Below are positions 5,857-56,248 of a DNA stretch of 56,441 nucleotides, piece after piece. Positions within the stretch are counted from its first letter, which is position 1; every line of letters starts with the position of its first letter. The notes under the pieces were generated by a model. It searched no databases and had not been told where the DNA came from. It was given only the letters and a program-made list of their open reading frames with translations. Source of the DNA: Candidatus Saccharimonadota bacterium (GTDB taxonomy: Bacteria > Patescibacteriota > Saccharimonadia > Saccharimonadales > Saccharimonadaceae); the NCBI GenBank assembly GCA_017545595.1, contig JAFWLO010000002.1:1-56441 (forward strand), written 5' to 3'. Position numbers and translations under genes: made by a program.

Positions 5857-8800
5857 ATGGAAATAAAAATATCTAACTTGGCGAAATGCGGGGGAAAGCT
5901 GAGCTGTTTTGCCTTGGTATTTTACTTCTGTTTGTTTTTGATTGTTCCGGAATTTTTGCCTAAGGGATGTTTCGCGGGAGCGGGCGAAGATGAACCGTCG
6001 CTTACTTTGTCTGTCGCTGAGTCGGGACCGCTCATGCTTTCTTTGACGCCGGGTTCGTATGGAACGGTTTCTCAAACATATTATGTGACGACGACGAATG
6101 ATGCTGGATATAGTTTGACTATGGAGACCGTCGGACAGAGTACTGGGCTTGTACAGGTCGGAGGTGTCGAAGAAATTCCTACCTTGGCTGAGAACACCAG
6201 CAAAATCATTACGGAAATGAGCGGGGAGTATGGATACAGCTTGAACCAGACCAATTTCTTGTCGGTTCCGGAGCTTGGAGAACAACTTAACTTAAAAAAG
6301 ACATCGACCGCTAGCACAACGCCGGACGAGACTGTGTTGACTTTCGGGGTAAATACGCCGATTTCTGCTTCGGCTGGAGTTTATCAAAATACATTTTTGA
6401 TTACGGCGGCTGTGAATCCGACATATGTTTATATTGATTGCGACGCGGGATATATTTGTTACAGTGGGAATAATGATGACGGAACTGGGACAATGTCAGA
6501 CCAAGAGGCGAGTTCGAATACGAATACACTTTTGACAGCTTCAAACTTTTCTCGCCCGGGATATGGATTTAAGGGGTGGAACACGAAACCGGACGGGACG
6601 GGGACGGCGTATGGCGCGAGCGAAACAATCAGAACAGGCGATTTATCTGAAGAAGGGCTGGCATTATACGCGCAGTGGGTAGCGCCGAGTGGAATTATTC
6701 AAAACTGGACTGGATGTTCGAGATTGAGCGTTGGTGAGACTATTGCGTTGAAGGATTTTCGTGATGGCGAGGTTTATGCGGTGGCCAAGTTGGCGGATGG
6801 AAAATGTTGGATGGTAGAAAATTCGAGATTGAATCCGGCGACGGCGAAGATTTCTAAGGCGAACACAAATTCGCCGACGGATACTTTCATTGCACAAGCG
6901 TCGGTTTCTGCTAGTGAAAAGGCTTTGTGCGCATTGACGACGTCGGATTGTTTAGATTCGGTTCAGTATAATCTGAACAACATGGATAGAAGTTTGACTC
7001 AAGATTATGCAAATAATGGTAATTCCCTGGCGTGGTATAGCTATGGAGGCATGTATAACTGGTATACGGCGACGGCGGGAAATGGTACGAGGTCCGTGAC
7101 AACTGGGAGCGTTAGTGGGGATATCTGCCCGGCGGGTTGGAGATTGCCGACGAGCGAGGCAGATGGTGATTATGTTGCGCTCAATAATGCCTTGAACAAT
7201 GGAGCCACGTCGTCGGATACTGGTTTGAGGACTTATCCTGCGAACTTTATTTATTCGGGAGATTATAATACAGCAGTGAGTACGGGACGTGGAAAACAGG
7301 CGAGGTTTTGGTCGGCGACAGCATTTAGCGCGGCTAATGCATATCGTTTGGGTTATTCCGCGACGCAGGTTACGCCGAGGAATAATTGGCAGAAGTGGGA
7401 TGCGTTTTCTGTTAGATGCATTGCTAAGGATTCTGTTCCGGCGGTGACTGGGACAATACATTATGAGGGGAATGGTGCCAGCGGGACAATGACCGATGAT
7501 GCTAATGTTAATCTTTATAGAACTGCAGCGAAGGCGAATGCGTTTGACTACGGAGATCATCACTTATTTGTTGAGTGGAATACGCAAGCGGATGGGAGCG
7601 GAACGAGCGTAAAAGATGGGGATTTGGTTGCGGAAGCTGCGGAGGCGGAAGCTACGGCGACTGGCGGAACTCTGACGTTATATGCGTTATGGGGAGACGA
7701 AGCTACCTTGACGTATGATGCGACAGGCGGCGATGGGGCTCCTGAGCCTATGACGGTTGTCGGAACGAATGGTAGCTACACATTTACGGTTTCTGCTCAG
7801 AGACCGACGAGAATTGATTACGGATTTGTTGGTTGGAGTCTTGACCCTGAAGCTGAGACGGCGGATTATATGCCGAGCGATACGTTTACGACGAATAATC
7901 TAGAAACGACTCTTTATGCGGTTTGGAGGCCTGTGGCTTGTAATGCGGGCAAACTCTGTTACCGAGGAAATGGAGCGAACGAAGGAACAATTATATCTCA
8001 AGATGCTTCTTCTGGAGCGACGCTCGGGCTTTTGCCATCTGATTTCTCAAAGACAGGGTATGGATTTACGGGTTGGAATACGAAAGATGATGGGAGTGGG
8101 ACGAATTATGGGCCGATCGAGACGATTACTGTCGGGGATACTTCAGAGGAAGGCGAGATTCTGTACGCGAACTGGGTGGCGTCGGAAGGAAATATGCAAG
8201 AATTTAGCCGTTGTTCGGAGATGAATACTGGAGATATTACGGCGTTGACGGATACGAGAGATAATAATACGTATGCTATTGCTAAGCTGGCGGATGGAAA
8301 TTGTTGGATGATGGAGAATTTGAGGCTTGATCCGTCAGCGGTGACTATTTCAAGTAGTAATACAAATTTGCCGACTTCGACGTTTGTGACTGAGGCAAGT
8401 GCTTCTTCTAGCACTTCGAATTTCTGTACGGCAAATACTAATGCATGTATTAATGCTGTTGCATTTAACACGAACGGGATTAATAGGTCACTTACAGCGA
8501 GTTATAACGCGAATAACTTGACGAGCTCTTGGTTTAGCTATGGAGTGCTTTATAACTGGTATACGGCGACGGCGGGAAATGGCTCAACGTCGGTTATAAC
8601 TGGAGATGTGACTGGTGATATCTGTCCGGCCGGTTGGAGGTTGCCAACAGGGGGATCGGGAGGTGAGTTCGAAGCATTGAATAATATCGTAAATAACGGA
8701 AGCTTGAGAGCGAGTACTGGGCTTAGGACTTACCCTGTTAGCTTTGTGTACGGGGGGGATATCAACGGGACGAAGGTGAGCGGAAGAGGTACTTACGCGC

Positions 8801-8928
8801 GTTATTGGAGTGCGACTACGTCGGATGCGAACAATGCGTTTAGGCTTGGGTTTAATGCGACTGAAGTTACTCCGCTTAGGGCGTATAATAAGTGGGATGC
8901 TTTCGCGGTTAGATGTGTTGCGAAGTAG
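5857..8928 (+). CDS. Large secreted protein with InlB-type repeats and two FISUMP domains
   Basis: Secreted 1023-residue protein. A hydrophobic signal segment covers about residues 14-40. A beta-rich region follows, then alternating modules: an InlB/Listeria-Bacteroides-type repeat (GYGFKGWNTKPDGTGTAYG), a Fibrobacter-succinogenes-major-paralogous-like domain (about residues 285-522, with KLADGKCWMVEN and DICPAGWRLPTS), two or three more InlB-type repeats, and a second FISUMP-like domain to the C-terminus. The two FISUMP halves are clear internal duplications, also at DNA level. There is no C-terminal sorting motif or anchor, so it is probably released or held non-covalently. A promoter TTGCAC/TACAAT (17-bp spacer) lies just upstream. 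The ligand is unknown. Confidence 0.88.
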   Translation: MEIKISNLAKCGGKLSCFALVFYFCLFLIVPEFLPKGCFAGAGEDEPSLTLSVAESGPLMLSLTPGSYGTVSQTYYVTTTNDAGYSLTMETVGQSTGLVQVGGVEEIPTLAENTSKIITEMSGEYGYSLNQTNFLSVPELGEQLNLKKTSTASTTPDETVLTFGVNTPISASAGVYQNTFLITAAVNPTYVYIDCDAGYICYSGNNDDGTGTMSDQEASSNTNTLLTASNFSRPGYGFKGWNTKPDGTGTAYGASETIRTGDLSEEGLALYAQWVAPSGIIQNWTGCSRLSVGETIALKDFRDGEVYAVAKLADGKCWMVENSRLNPATAKISKANTNSPTDTFIAQASVSASEKALCALTTSDCLDSVQYNLNNMDRSLTQDYANNGNSLAWYSYGGMYNWYTATAGNGTRSVTTGSVSGDICPAGWRLPTSEADGDYVALNNALNNGATSSDTGLRTYPANFIYSGDYNTAVSTGRGKQARFWSATAFSAANAYRLGYSATQVTPRNNWQKWDAFSVRCIAKDSVPAVTGTIHYEGNGASGTMTDDANVNLYRTAAKANAFDYGDHHLFVEWNTQADGSGTSVKDGDLVAEAAEAEATATGGTLTLYALWGDEATLTYDATGGDGAPEPMTVVGTNGSYTFTVSAQRPTRIDYGFVGWSLDPEAETADYMPSDTFTTNNLETTLYAVWRPVACNAGKLCYRGNGANEGTIISQDASSGATLGLLPSDFSKTGYGFTGWNTKDDGSGTNYGPIETITVGDTSEEGEILYANWVASEGNMQEFSRCSEMNTGDITALTDTRDNNTYAIAKLADGNCWMMENLRLDPSAVTISSSNTNLPTSTFVTEASASSSTSNFCTANTNACINAVAFNTNGINRSLTASYNANNLTSSWFSYGVLYNWYTATAGNGSTSVITGDVTGDICPAGWRLPTGGSGGEFEALNNIVNNGSLRASTGLRTYPVSFVYGGDINGTKVSGRGTYARYWSATTSDANNAFRLGFNATEVTPLRAYNKWDAFAVRCVAK

Positions 8929-10415: not shown

Positions 10416-10452
10416 ACATGGAAGTTTGAACCCGGCTCGATTCCTGTCTATC

Positions 10453-10493
10453 AAAATAATAAAAACATCCTTCTTCGATGTTTTTATTATTTT
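10453..10493. terminator. Bidirectional terminator between the SDR promoter and tRNA-Leu
   Basis: A 17-bp A/T-rich stem (10453-10469 with 10477-10493) around a short pyrimidine loop, with A and T runs on both sides. It ends at the CCA of the tRNA-Leu gene and would terminate the tRNA transcript. Confidence 0.8.
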
Positions 10494-10579
10494 GGTGGGC
10501 GAAGTGGGAATCGAACCCACACGATATTGCTATCACTAGATTTTGAGTCTGGCGCGTCTACCAATTCCGCCATTCGCCC
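10493..10579 (-). tRNA. tRNA-Leu (CAA anticodon)
   Basis: Class II tRNA with acceptor stem GGGCGAA/TTCGCCC, discriminator A and an encoded CCA. The T arm is GTGGG-TTCGATT-CCCAC, and the long variable arm contains the hairpin GATA-GCAA-TATC. The anticodon loop CTCAAAA gives CAA, reading UUG. One C/A mismatch is visible in the anticodon stem. Confidence 0.95.
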
Positions 10580-10619: not shown

Positions 10620-10643
10620 AAAAATCCGCCCTGGAAGGGCGGA
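10620..10643 (-). terminator. Terminator of the large non-coding RNA
   Basis: A 7-bp GC-rich stem TCCGCCC/GGGCGGA with loop TTCCA in the RNA, followed by five U residues on the minus strand. The plus strand has no T run, which fixes the orientation. Confidence 0.9.
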
Positions 10644-11129
10644 GGAAGAATGTAAGAGAAGGGGGTGAAGCTTTTGAACGTAACGTATCTATATTTAATT
10701 TTGATTTTCTTCGGCTGATTTGTTTCGGAAGATTGCCAAGACCGAACGCAAAGTTCGCGAAGAAAATGTATATGATGAACCGTCCTTTATCGGTTCTCTG
10801 GAAGGTTTAGTGCTTTACAAGCACAAGAGCCATGTCGTTTTTGAACAACTTTTAATTTGAGCTTCATATGAGCTATTACTTATCACTCAGTCAACGTGAA
10901 GACAGTTCTTGTTTGTTTCCCGCTTATAACAAAACAAGTTACGAATTAAACGGTTACAATTTTTTTATACCTTAGTTTTGAGTTACACAGCCAACAATCC
11001 TACCTTGATTTTTAGTTACAATCTCTCATATTTCTCTCGGTTTGCACTAACTATGAGTTACTTCCCTTCTCTTACATTCCATGGATAAAAAGAACGTTAG
11101 GGTCATAAGGACAAGTTTCTGAACCTAAC
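10620..11129 (-). ncRNA. Large structured non-coding RNA, about 510 nt, class not recognised
   Basis: No open reading frame of note covers this stretch on either strand. A consensus promoter at 11136-11163 and a terminator at 10620-10643 define a minus-strand transcript. Its ends pair through a perfect 16-bp stem (10648-10663 with 11064-11079). Inside are a 10-bp helix (10704-10713 with 10758-10767) enclosing the hairpin CGAAC/GTTCG (10743-10757), hairpin GAACCG/CGGTTC (10777-10796), hairpin GTGCTT/AAGCAC (10810-10824), and a stem CTTGTTT/AAACAAG (10908-10938). The motif GTTAC (plus strand), or GTAAC in the RNA, recurs five times between about 10938 and 11060. It lacks RNase P core motifs and tmRNA features, and it lies just upstream of tRNA-Leu. 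Confidence 0.85.
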
Positions 11130-11135
11130 TGTATC

Positions 11136-11163
11136 ATTATATCACTCCGGCGGGATTTGTCAA
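11136..11163 (-). promoter_or_regulatory. Consensus sigma-70 promoter of the large non-coding RNA
   Basis: Minus strand: TTGACA at 11158-11163 and TATAAT at 11136-11141, both perfect, with a 16-bp spacer. Transcription should start near 11129. Confidence 0.9.
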
Positions 11164-11187: not shown

Positions 11188-11841
11188 TTAAAACCCTTGA
11201 TCGGCGGATTCTTGAAGAAGGGCGGGGTAATAGCCTGGATTAAACTCAGGAACAGAGGTGGATTCGGCGAAATCGAAAAAGGTTATGCCGAGTTTTTCTC
11301 TGAGGAGGGCTTCGGCGGAAGCTTCTGTCGAGACATTTTCTCCGAAATCTAGTTTTTTCCAGGAGAGTTTCTGGAGGTCGGTTACGGCGGATTTTAGATT
11401 GTCGGCTTCAGTTTTGATGAATTCTCGCATAATGGCGAGCTGGACTTCGTTTAGAGAGGGTTTTTCCTCGGAATCGTATTCTACGAGAGGAATCGAGGGG
11501 CGGAGCTCCTTTGCGAGCGCTAGAACGGCTTCGGAAAAGGCGGATTCGTTAGTTTTTTCCCAAGCGACGAGAATTTTAGCGAGATAAGAAAGAACGGCTT
11601 TTGTTTGTTCGGCTTCGTAGAAGTTGATTCGGCGGAGGTTTTCTTCGGAAAGATGAAGATCGCCAAGAGTTTCCTTCGTTTCTTTCCAAGAGGTTTGCCA
11701 GTTCGAGAACAGAGATGTGAGAATTTCTACCGCTTCGTTTCTTTGGACTTCCCAAAAAGGAGCTTCTTCGAGGGATTCTAGGGTAGAAGTTTTAGGGATT
11801 GATTTGAAAAATGGGGATTTTTTGATAAAAAAAGCGGACAT
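11188..11841 (-). CDS. Uncharacterised cytoplasmic protein
   Basis: Not recognised. The 217-residue product has no signal peptide or membrane segment and looks largely helical, with many Glu, Lys, Leu and Trp residues (FSNWQTSWKETKETLGDL, LVAWEKTNESAFSEAV). Coding quality is good: base composition and purine-rich codons match the neighbours. A TATAAT-like box (TATTAT/TATAGT) lies a short distance before the start. It ends 25 nt before the promoter of the large non-coding RNA on the same strand. It could be a conserved lineage protein; no enzymatic motif is seen. Confidence 0.7.
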   Translation of the reverse strand: MSAFFIKKSPFFKSIPKTSTLESLEEAPFWEVQRNEAVEILTSLFSNWQTSWKETKETLGDLHLSEENLRRINFYEAEQTKAVLSYLAKILVAWEKTNESAFSEAVLALAKELRPSIPLVEYDSEEKPSLNEVQLAIMREFIKTEADNLKSAVTDLQKLSWKKLDFGENVSTEASAEALLREKLGITFFDFAESTSVPEFNPGYYPALLQESADQGF

Positions 11842-55541: not shown

Positions 55542-55620
55542 TGAAAGAGACTGGCTCAAAAAGCGTCCGGATGGATGCCTGCCCCATGAAACGGGATAGA
55601 GCCAGTTTCGCCTTATTCGT
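55542..55620 (+). ncRNA. Small structured RNA convergent with the second DUF3800 gene (RNA B)
   Basis: Plus-strand transcript. An 8-bp outer stem ACTGGCTC/GAGCCAGT (55550-55557 with 55599-55606) encloses hairpin GCGTCC-GGAT-GGATGC and a CCC-ATGAAAC-GGG hairpin followed by GGATAGA. It shares GCGTC, ATGA, GGATAGA and the outer-stem layout with RNA A at 26565-26670. The 3' end is not marked by a clear U run and is estimated; it may overlap the end of the DUF3800 gene. Confidence 0.7.
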
Positions 55621-56248
55621 TATTTAAGTCTAGTCGTTTTATCTGAACGACTTTTTTGTTGAGGATTTTCAGATAAGTTTTTGCGTCGGTTTTTTCAGGT
55701 TGCATTGAACGGTTGATTGAGCCGGCTATGAGGTCGGCGAGTTGGATTAGATTATCTTTTACGGAATCTTCGGTTTTTATTTCTTTGATTTTCCGTGTTT
55801 TGGTGTTTATTTCGTGACGAAGATATGACGAGACTCGCCGTTTATGTTCTTTAGTGGAACGGCCATCGATTTTTATAGACGCGTCGCTTAATGGAATGAT
55901 TTTTAGAAGTTCTTTTATGGTCCAGTTGTATAACTTTTCTTTGTCGAAGAGCGGAAAGATTGTTTTATAACCAGTTTTGTCGACATATACAGCATAAATC
56001 TGGAAATTGTAGCGGGAGATAATTTCTAAAAGCTGTTTTATAATGCGTTTGTTGGTTTTTCTAAATTTGAACTCTGCGTTTTCTCTCCAACCTAGAGAAC
56101 GCCTAAAGTCGGAAATTGCATGGTTTACTTCGGATGCCGTCTTTGGCTCAATGAAAACTGCGGAAGCCATAATGAAATTGCTACTACTCGCACCTTCTTT
56201 GAAGCCTGGATCTCCTGAGTCGTCGATGAAAACTAGTTGTTTGGTCAT
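55613..56248 (-). CDS. DUF3800 domain protein
   Basis: A 211-residue protein starting KQLVFIDDSGDPGF, the acidic DDSGDPG motif of DUF3800, with EFKFRKTNKRII in the middle, IKIDGRSTKEH with another Asp, and DNLIQLADLIAGSINRS near the end. The spaced acidic residues resemble an RNase H-like active site, so a nuclease role is suspected but not proven for the family. TACAAT lies 6 nt before the ATG, making the mRNA leaderless. A small RNA is transcribed toward its 3' end, as for the frameshifted copy at 25944. Confidence 0.85.
   Translation of the reverse strand: MTKQLVFIDDSGDPGFKEGASSSNFIMASAVFIEPKTASEVNHAISDFRRSLGWRENAEFKFRKTNKRIIKQLLEIISRYNFQIYAVYVDKTGYKTIFPLFDKEKLYNWTIKELLKIIPLSDASIKIDGRSTKEHKRRVSSYLRHEINTKTRKIKEIKTEDSVKDNLIQLADLIAGSINRSMQPEKTDAKTYLKILNKKVVQIKRLDLNNE

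Follow-up and report, generated by a model that had tools for sequence, protein, structure and literature searches.

The interval between a 217-aa ORF and the tRNA-Leu(CAA) gene of the window (the whole 56,441-nt stretch of DNA analysed here) probably carries a lineage-specific noncoding RNA (ncRNA) gene, predicted to be strongly transcribed, with clamped ends and located at a variable site; we give this reading a probability of roughly 55%. It is supported by a promoter and a terminator in the right order and on the right strand, and by a 16-bp inverted repeat placed just inside the leader and the terminator. Against it stand an interior that is random-like and the lack of a homologue in genomes, phages, plasmids and sampled IMG/VR seeds.

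The window corresponds to contig C14 of a 745-kb genome (15 contigs, 98.8% complete), whose uS9 is closest to those of Candidatus Saccharibacteria MAGs, the top ones coming mostly from ruminant gut. The 217-aa ORF, to which no function was assigned, follows the ribosomal-protein operon and has relatives in a minority of the genus (8 of the 118 genomes searched, its own included). Near the tRNA-Leu gene, a short stretch at 10428-10445 (GAACCCGGCTCGATTCC) resembles part of a tRNA T-arm and has an 11-nt inverted match to that gene; it is possibly a tRNA remnant. Elsewhere, the window carries a 1023-aa protein with Listeria-Bacteroides repeats, Fib_succ_major domains and a signal-like N-terminus (5857-8928, plus strand), as well as an Rfam DUF3800-IX RNA motif near the contig end (55547-55613, plus strand), which is abutted on the opposite strand by a DUF3800-like protein gene (55613-56248, minus strand; named by eye).

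Layout of the unit and class of its promoter

Read along the minus strand, the unit consists of a promoter, a leader hairpin, the 5' arm of a stem, a 400-nt body, the 3' arm of the stem and a terminator (Table 1). A preliminary description of this DNA had reported a perfect promoter, a 16-bp stem joining the two ends, a rho-independent terminator and a tRNA-Leu gene just past the unit, and all four were recovered.

Table 1. Coordinates of the candidate unit and its neighbours in the window
Feature	Coordinates	Strand	Remarks
217-aa ORF	11188..11841	minus	Neighbour; other edge of the variable site
Promoter, TTGACA-16-TATAAT, TG extension before the -10 box, A-tract upstream	11136..11163	minus	12/12 consensus bases
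5' leader hairpin, 9 pairs (GUUAGGUUCA/UGACCCUAAC), then CUUUUU run	11096..11129	minus	Pair probability 0.99; z = -2.07
Closing stem, 5' arm, 16 bp perfect (17 with a G-U pair)	11064..11080	minus	Inverted-repeat search and fold
RNA body, 400 nt, 5' half without detectable structure	10664..11063	minus	z = 0.0
3' domain with 6-bp closing helix	10667..10865	minus	Pair probabilities 0.70-0.93; z = -2.5
3' domain hairpins	10849-10834, 10824-10810, 10798-10774	minus	Predicted fold
3' domain stem-loop	10767-10704	minus	Predicted fold
Closing stem, 3' arm	10647..10663	minus	Inverted-repeat search and fold
Intrinsic terminator, 8-bp stem, 3-nt loop, T5	10620..10643	minus	Stem-loop 10643-10625, then TTTTT
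tRNA-Leu(CAA)	10493..10579	minus	Neighbour; own promoter-like TTATAGTAAAATA, common with the empty site in L025

The perfect inverted repeat (10648-10663 / 11064-11079) leaves exactly 400 nt between its arms. Among 150 dinucleotide-shuffled versions, the longest inverted repeat averaged 8.6 and reached 12 at most, and 108 further 511-nt segments taken from the window likewise held none longer than 12, as compared to 16 in the unit. The closing stem is thus far beyond chance in sequence.

The interval was also said to contain no gene, and this held up on inspection: no ORF of at least 60 aa is present within the unit on either strand, the longest ORF in the transcript, with any start allowed, has 26 codons, and no ORF of at least 8 codons in the transcript is preceded by a Shine-Dalgarno-like word. 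Pfam searches with six-frame translations of the unit returned no match except one chance line (E = 0.17). With a promoter and a terminator present and a translatable ORF absent, the segment would qualify by sequence criteria as an independent noncoding transcription unit.

Within the unit, matches in the genus recur most often at the promoter region (11174-11124), which aligns at approximately 80% to promoters of 16S rRNA, tRNA-fMet and an ncRNA of about 310 nt in related genomes. The matches read in detail precede 16S rRNA (L106), tRNA-fMet (L113) and the unannotated ncRNA (L107, L108, L109, L111, L112, L116), with shorter ones before 16S (L124) and 23S (L117); 16S was called by its sequence, and 23S and the tRNAs by Rfam. 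Considered as homologues of the unit, these matches were rejected, since they led to 16S rRNA, tRNA-fMet and the 310-nt RNA instead. The promoters have an upstream A-tract and the TTGACA box in common, and those of 16S and the tRNA additionally share CTTGACAAATC. The promoter of a protein gene at the equivalent site of a relative (L047) has no A-tract. Of all the evidence for a stable-RNA gene, this resemblance to stable-RNA promoters is the strongest.

As read from the sequence, RNA polymerase would initiate near 11130, at a promoter of the type that precedes rRNA and other stable-RNA genes of the genus, and would stop at the intrinsic terminator, at 10620; transcription would be high. In the cell, the ends of the body would pair as a stem of 16-17 bp that clamps a 400-nt loop domain and would shield the RNA from exonucleases. 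The clamp may also be a site of double-strand cleavage freeing an RNA of about 400-430 nt, in the manner of the processing stems that flank rRNA and undergo such cleavage. The unit resembles these in its strong stable-RNA promoter and in the long stem that joins the ends of its body, but it has no rRNA inside, and its cleavage is something that we only infer.

Interior of the unit and search for homologues

Once the closing stem is removed, the body (10664-11063) folds on the RNA strand with z = 0.0, and its 5' domain (11030-10867) with z = +0.17. The 3' domain reaches the value given in Table 1, with 3 of 200 shuffles as stable, for a domain picked after the fold had been seen. The unit as a whole has z = -2.8, but of 78 control segments taken from the window, 9 have values of -2.5 or lower; for comparison, a true ncRNA encoded in this genome gives z = -7.9. 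Minus and plus strands of the unit fold about equally. The interior thus folds no better than shuffled sequence, and only its 3' part is mildly structured. The four or more internal helices of the preliminary description, taken there as a sign of structure, could not be confirmed as exceeding chance; helices that long are expected in 400 nt.

The five GTAAC motifs described in the RNA were counted correctly. Against an expectation of 0.58, their number gives p 0.0004 when this word is considered by itself, but the motifs are not unusual, as some 5-mer occurs at least five times in 98.8% of shuffles. An array of GTAAC binding sites was ruled out on the same ground, the count not being significant against shuffles.

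Covariance searches against Rfam bore out the description of the unit as unrecognised: cmscan matched the unit to no family, whether run on the window at the gathering score or on the region with E values as high as 10; the latter run listed eukaryotic or unrelated small families, all at chance level. By blastn, nothing beyond chance was found in 99 and then 174 genomes of the genus, 394 of the family and 393 of the order (overlapping sets), and phages and plasmids held no homologue. Neither sampled exact seeds in IMG/VR, which gave no extended similarity, nor nhmmer over 2.5 Mb of fetched loci produced one, and a single-sequence covariance model of the 3' domain (R1) had no match in the 174 genus genomes or in 75 loci. 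No close sister genome of the lineage turned up in these collections, some of which may omit records very near the window's genome. Since no homologues were found in the genomes, phages, plasmids and IMG/VR seeds searched, the unit offers no covariation test, and selection on its sequence or structure cannot be shown. The missing homologues are absence of evidence, not proof against function.

Outside the promoter, DNA matches in genus, family and order genomes were short, about 18-35 nt. Those read in detail were attributed to chance and lie in unrelated coding sequence, namely DNA polymerase III-like, two-domain methyltransferase and ribonucleotide reductase-like genes (names by eye). A match found in three genomes (TTTTATCCATGGAAT) goes back to one shared methyltransferase gene, whose protein is similar to the unit at chance level only (tblastn).

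Family models of RNase P RNA and tmRNA did not match the window RNA, and RNase P RNA is encoded elsewhere in the genome (G000:C2:12432-12763). The genome also encodes SmpB (G000:C5:35580-35954; L374), and the tmRNA model RF00023 gave no match above cut-off in the whole genome and none in 19 kb around smpB. Either the model misses the tmRNA, or it falls in an assembly gap, or this SmpB works without one.

If the unit is an ncRNA gene, its 3' hairpins and open 5' half might engage a partner in trans, either a protein or another RNA. A bolder form of this reading, in which the unit represents a new class of stem-clamped, weakly structured RNA of about 400 nt, which a single Saccharibacteria lineage would make at rRNA-like levels and which would act in trans, for example on the host bacterium or on phage, appears rather unlikely.

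The variable site and alternative explanations

At the equivalent site of one relative (L025), the 217-aa ORF runs straight to the tRNA, with TTATAGTAAAATA shared, and this site is therefore empty. L047, whose SDR gene downstream shares 88% identity with its counterpart in the window, has a 177-aa ORF at the corresponding site, together with a promoter and a terminator, and its tRNA lies in inverted orientation. L038, L021, G030, G002 and further relatives show either different genes there or a tRNA that has been rearranged. The intervals between the ORF and tRNA-Leu(CAA) at L047 7279-7809, L038 6947-6387 and L186 3086-5176 contain differing genes, and the tRNA is inverted in several relatives. 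Since relatives show the site empty or with other contents, the site is variable and the unit is one of several alternatives that occupy it.

Such variability also suits the main rival explanation, according to which the unit is a transcribed relic: a protein gene or other cargo of the site, with its own promoter and terminator, would have decayed or been replaced, leaving a transcript devoid of function. The syntenic L047 locus, where a similarly built promoter and terminator flank the 177-aa ORF in this position, points in this direction, as do the random-like interior and the low GC content of the unit (37%, versus 46% for the window), which fits foreign or decaying DNA as well. However, when the L047 and L038 proteins were compared to the frames of the unit, similarity was at chance level only, and no frame matches Pfam. 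A decayed gene would not be expected to have its body enclosed by a perfect 16-bp stem, and the promoter is unlike that of L047 and resembles those of stable RNAs. We thus consider a relic to be possible, although doubtful.

It is quite unlikely that the unit is a non-autonomous mobile element inserted into a short transcription unit, with the 16-bp arms as its terminal inverted repeats. A perfect inverted repeat with arms 400 nt apart, an AT-rich interior and absence from the equivalent L025 site all speak for such an element, but it would be present as a single copy in its genome and in none of the other genomes searched, and the sequences next to it (GGAA on the left, CATG on the right) form no target-site duplication; neither the several copies nor the duplication typical of MITE-like elements was found. 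In addition, the arms lie exactly between leader and terminator.

ROOL and GOLLD RNAs are often located in tRNA islands of phages or prophages, a ROOL member is known from cow rumen, and many GOLLD RNAs are over 800 nt (PMC12286853). Like ROOL, the unit is hundreds of nt long, noncoding and near a tRNA gene; unlike ROOL, which is included in the library searched, it has no Rfam match at a useful score, and its body is without detectable ornate structure. With OLE and GOLLD it shares being a large noncoding transcription unit of unknown function, but it differs from both in having no Rfam match and an interior at z = 0.0, and it is shorter than many GOLLD RNAs. The phage context of ROOL and GOLLD is not seen, the unit being located beside a single chromosomal tRNA-Leu and the ribosomal-protein operon. 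The extensive internal structure of OLE, ROOL and GOLLD was not detected here beyond chance. A size and design comparable to these RNAs, as proposed in the preliminary description, could thus not be upheld, with an interior at chance, no homologue to show a class and no phage tRNA island. Of the new or lineage-specific class also proposed there, what stands is a lineage-specific noncoding unit with a stable-RNA-type promoter, closing stem and terminator, without an ORF or Rfam match; the elaborate class falls away.

That the unit is a far-diverged ROOL, GOLLD, OLE, raiA, tmRNA or 6S RNA missed by the Rfam models is highly improbable, despite a superficially similar size, closing stem and tRNA neighbour and a genome with SmpB but no tmRNA above cut-off, given that Rfam at E up to 10 yields only chance lines, the interior is random-like, and neither phage context nor a tRNA-like end is seen.

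A conserved RNA of about 310 nt in the genus

The RNA of about 310 nt, which was reached via the promoter matches, has its own promoter and terminator. It is present in 167 of 174 genus genomes and adjoins dprA-like and infB-like reading frames (names by eye). The copy of the window's genome is at G000:C6:12443-12807 (minus strand), within which lies L185 949-1260 (minus strand); others are at L107, L108, L109, L111, L112, L116, L150-L179 and L343-L362. Rfam has no match for it, and we found no description of it in the open-access literature.

In its 3' domain, a 9-bp helix is paired in 99.6% of cells, and 17 cells carry changes on both sides; none of 500 shuffles gave a double-change count as high, and slid controls gave at most 4. 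Among 245 genomes sampled across the class, 90 had a match to a model of this 3' domain (16 of 110 genera), and all but one of these class-wide matches fall within the same family. The terminator loop GAUGCCCACCC could pair with an upstream GAGGUGGGU to form a pseudoknot, both segments being conserved in the ~310-nt RNA sequences shown.

The window RNA and the ~310-nt RNA have in common the promoter type, a similar start (GATA-CAGTTAGG for the ~310-nt RNA in G058), a terminator and the lack of an Rfam match, but only the ~310-nt RNA shows conservation, in 167 of 174 genomes, and covariation, and it folds with z = -7.9. The possibility that the two are paralogues was rejected, as model R2 does not exceed 5.1 bits on the window region. 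The genome carries a ~310-nt RNA of its own elsewhere.

Very small genomes are typical of Saccharibacteria, and we found no paper in the open-access literature describing noncoding RNAs in these organisms; for both reasons the unit is noteworthy. On its own, the window unit is a single-genome candidate, and the ~310-nt RNA, which is family-wide and covarying and has no Rfam entry, would be more rewarding to study. Nevertheless, a stable-RNA-type promoter spent on an ORF-free unit, in a very small genome, deserves attention.
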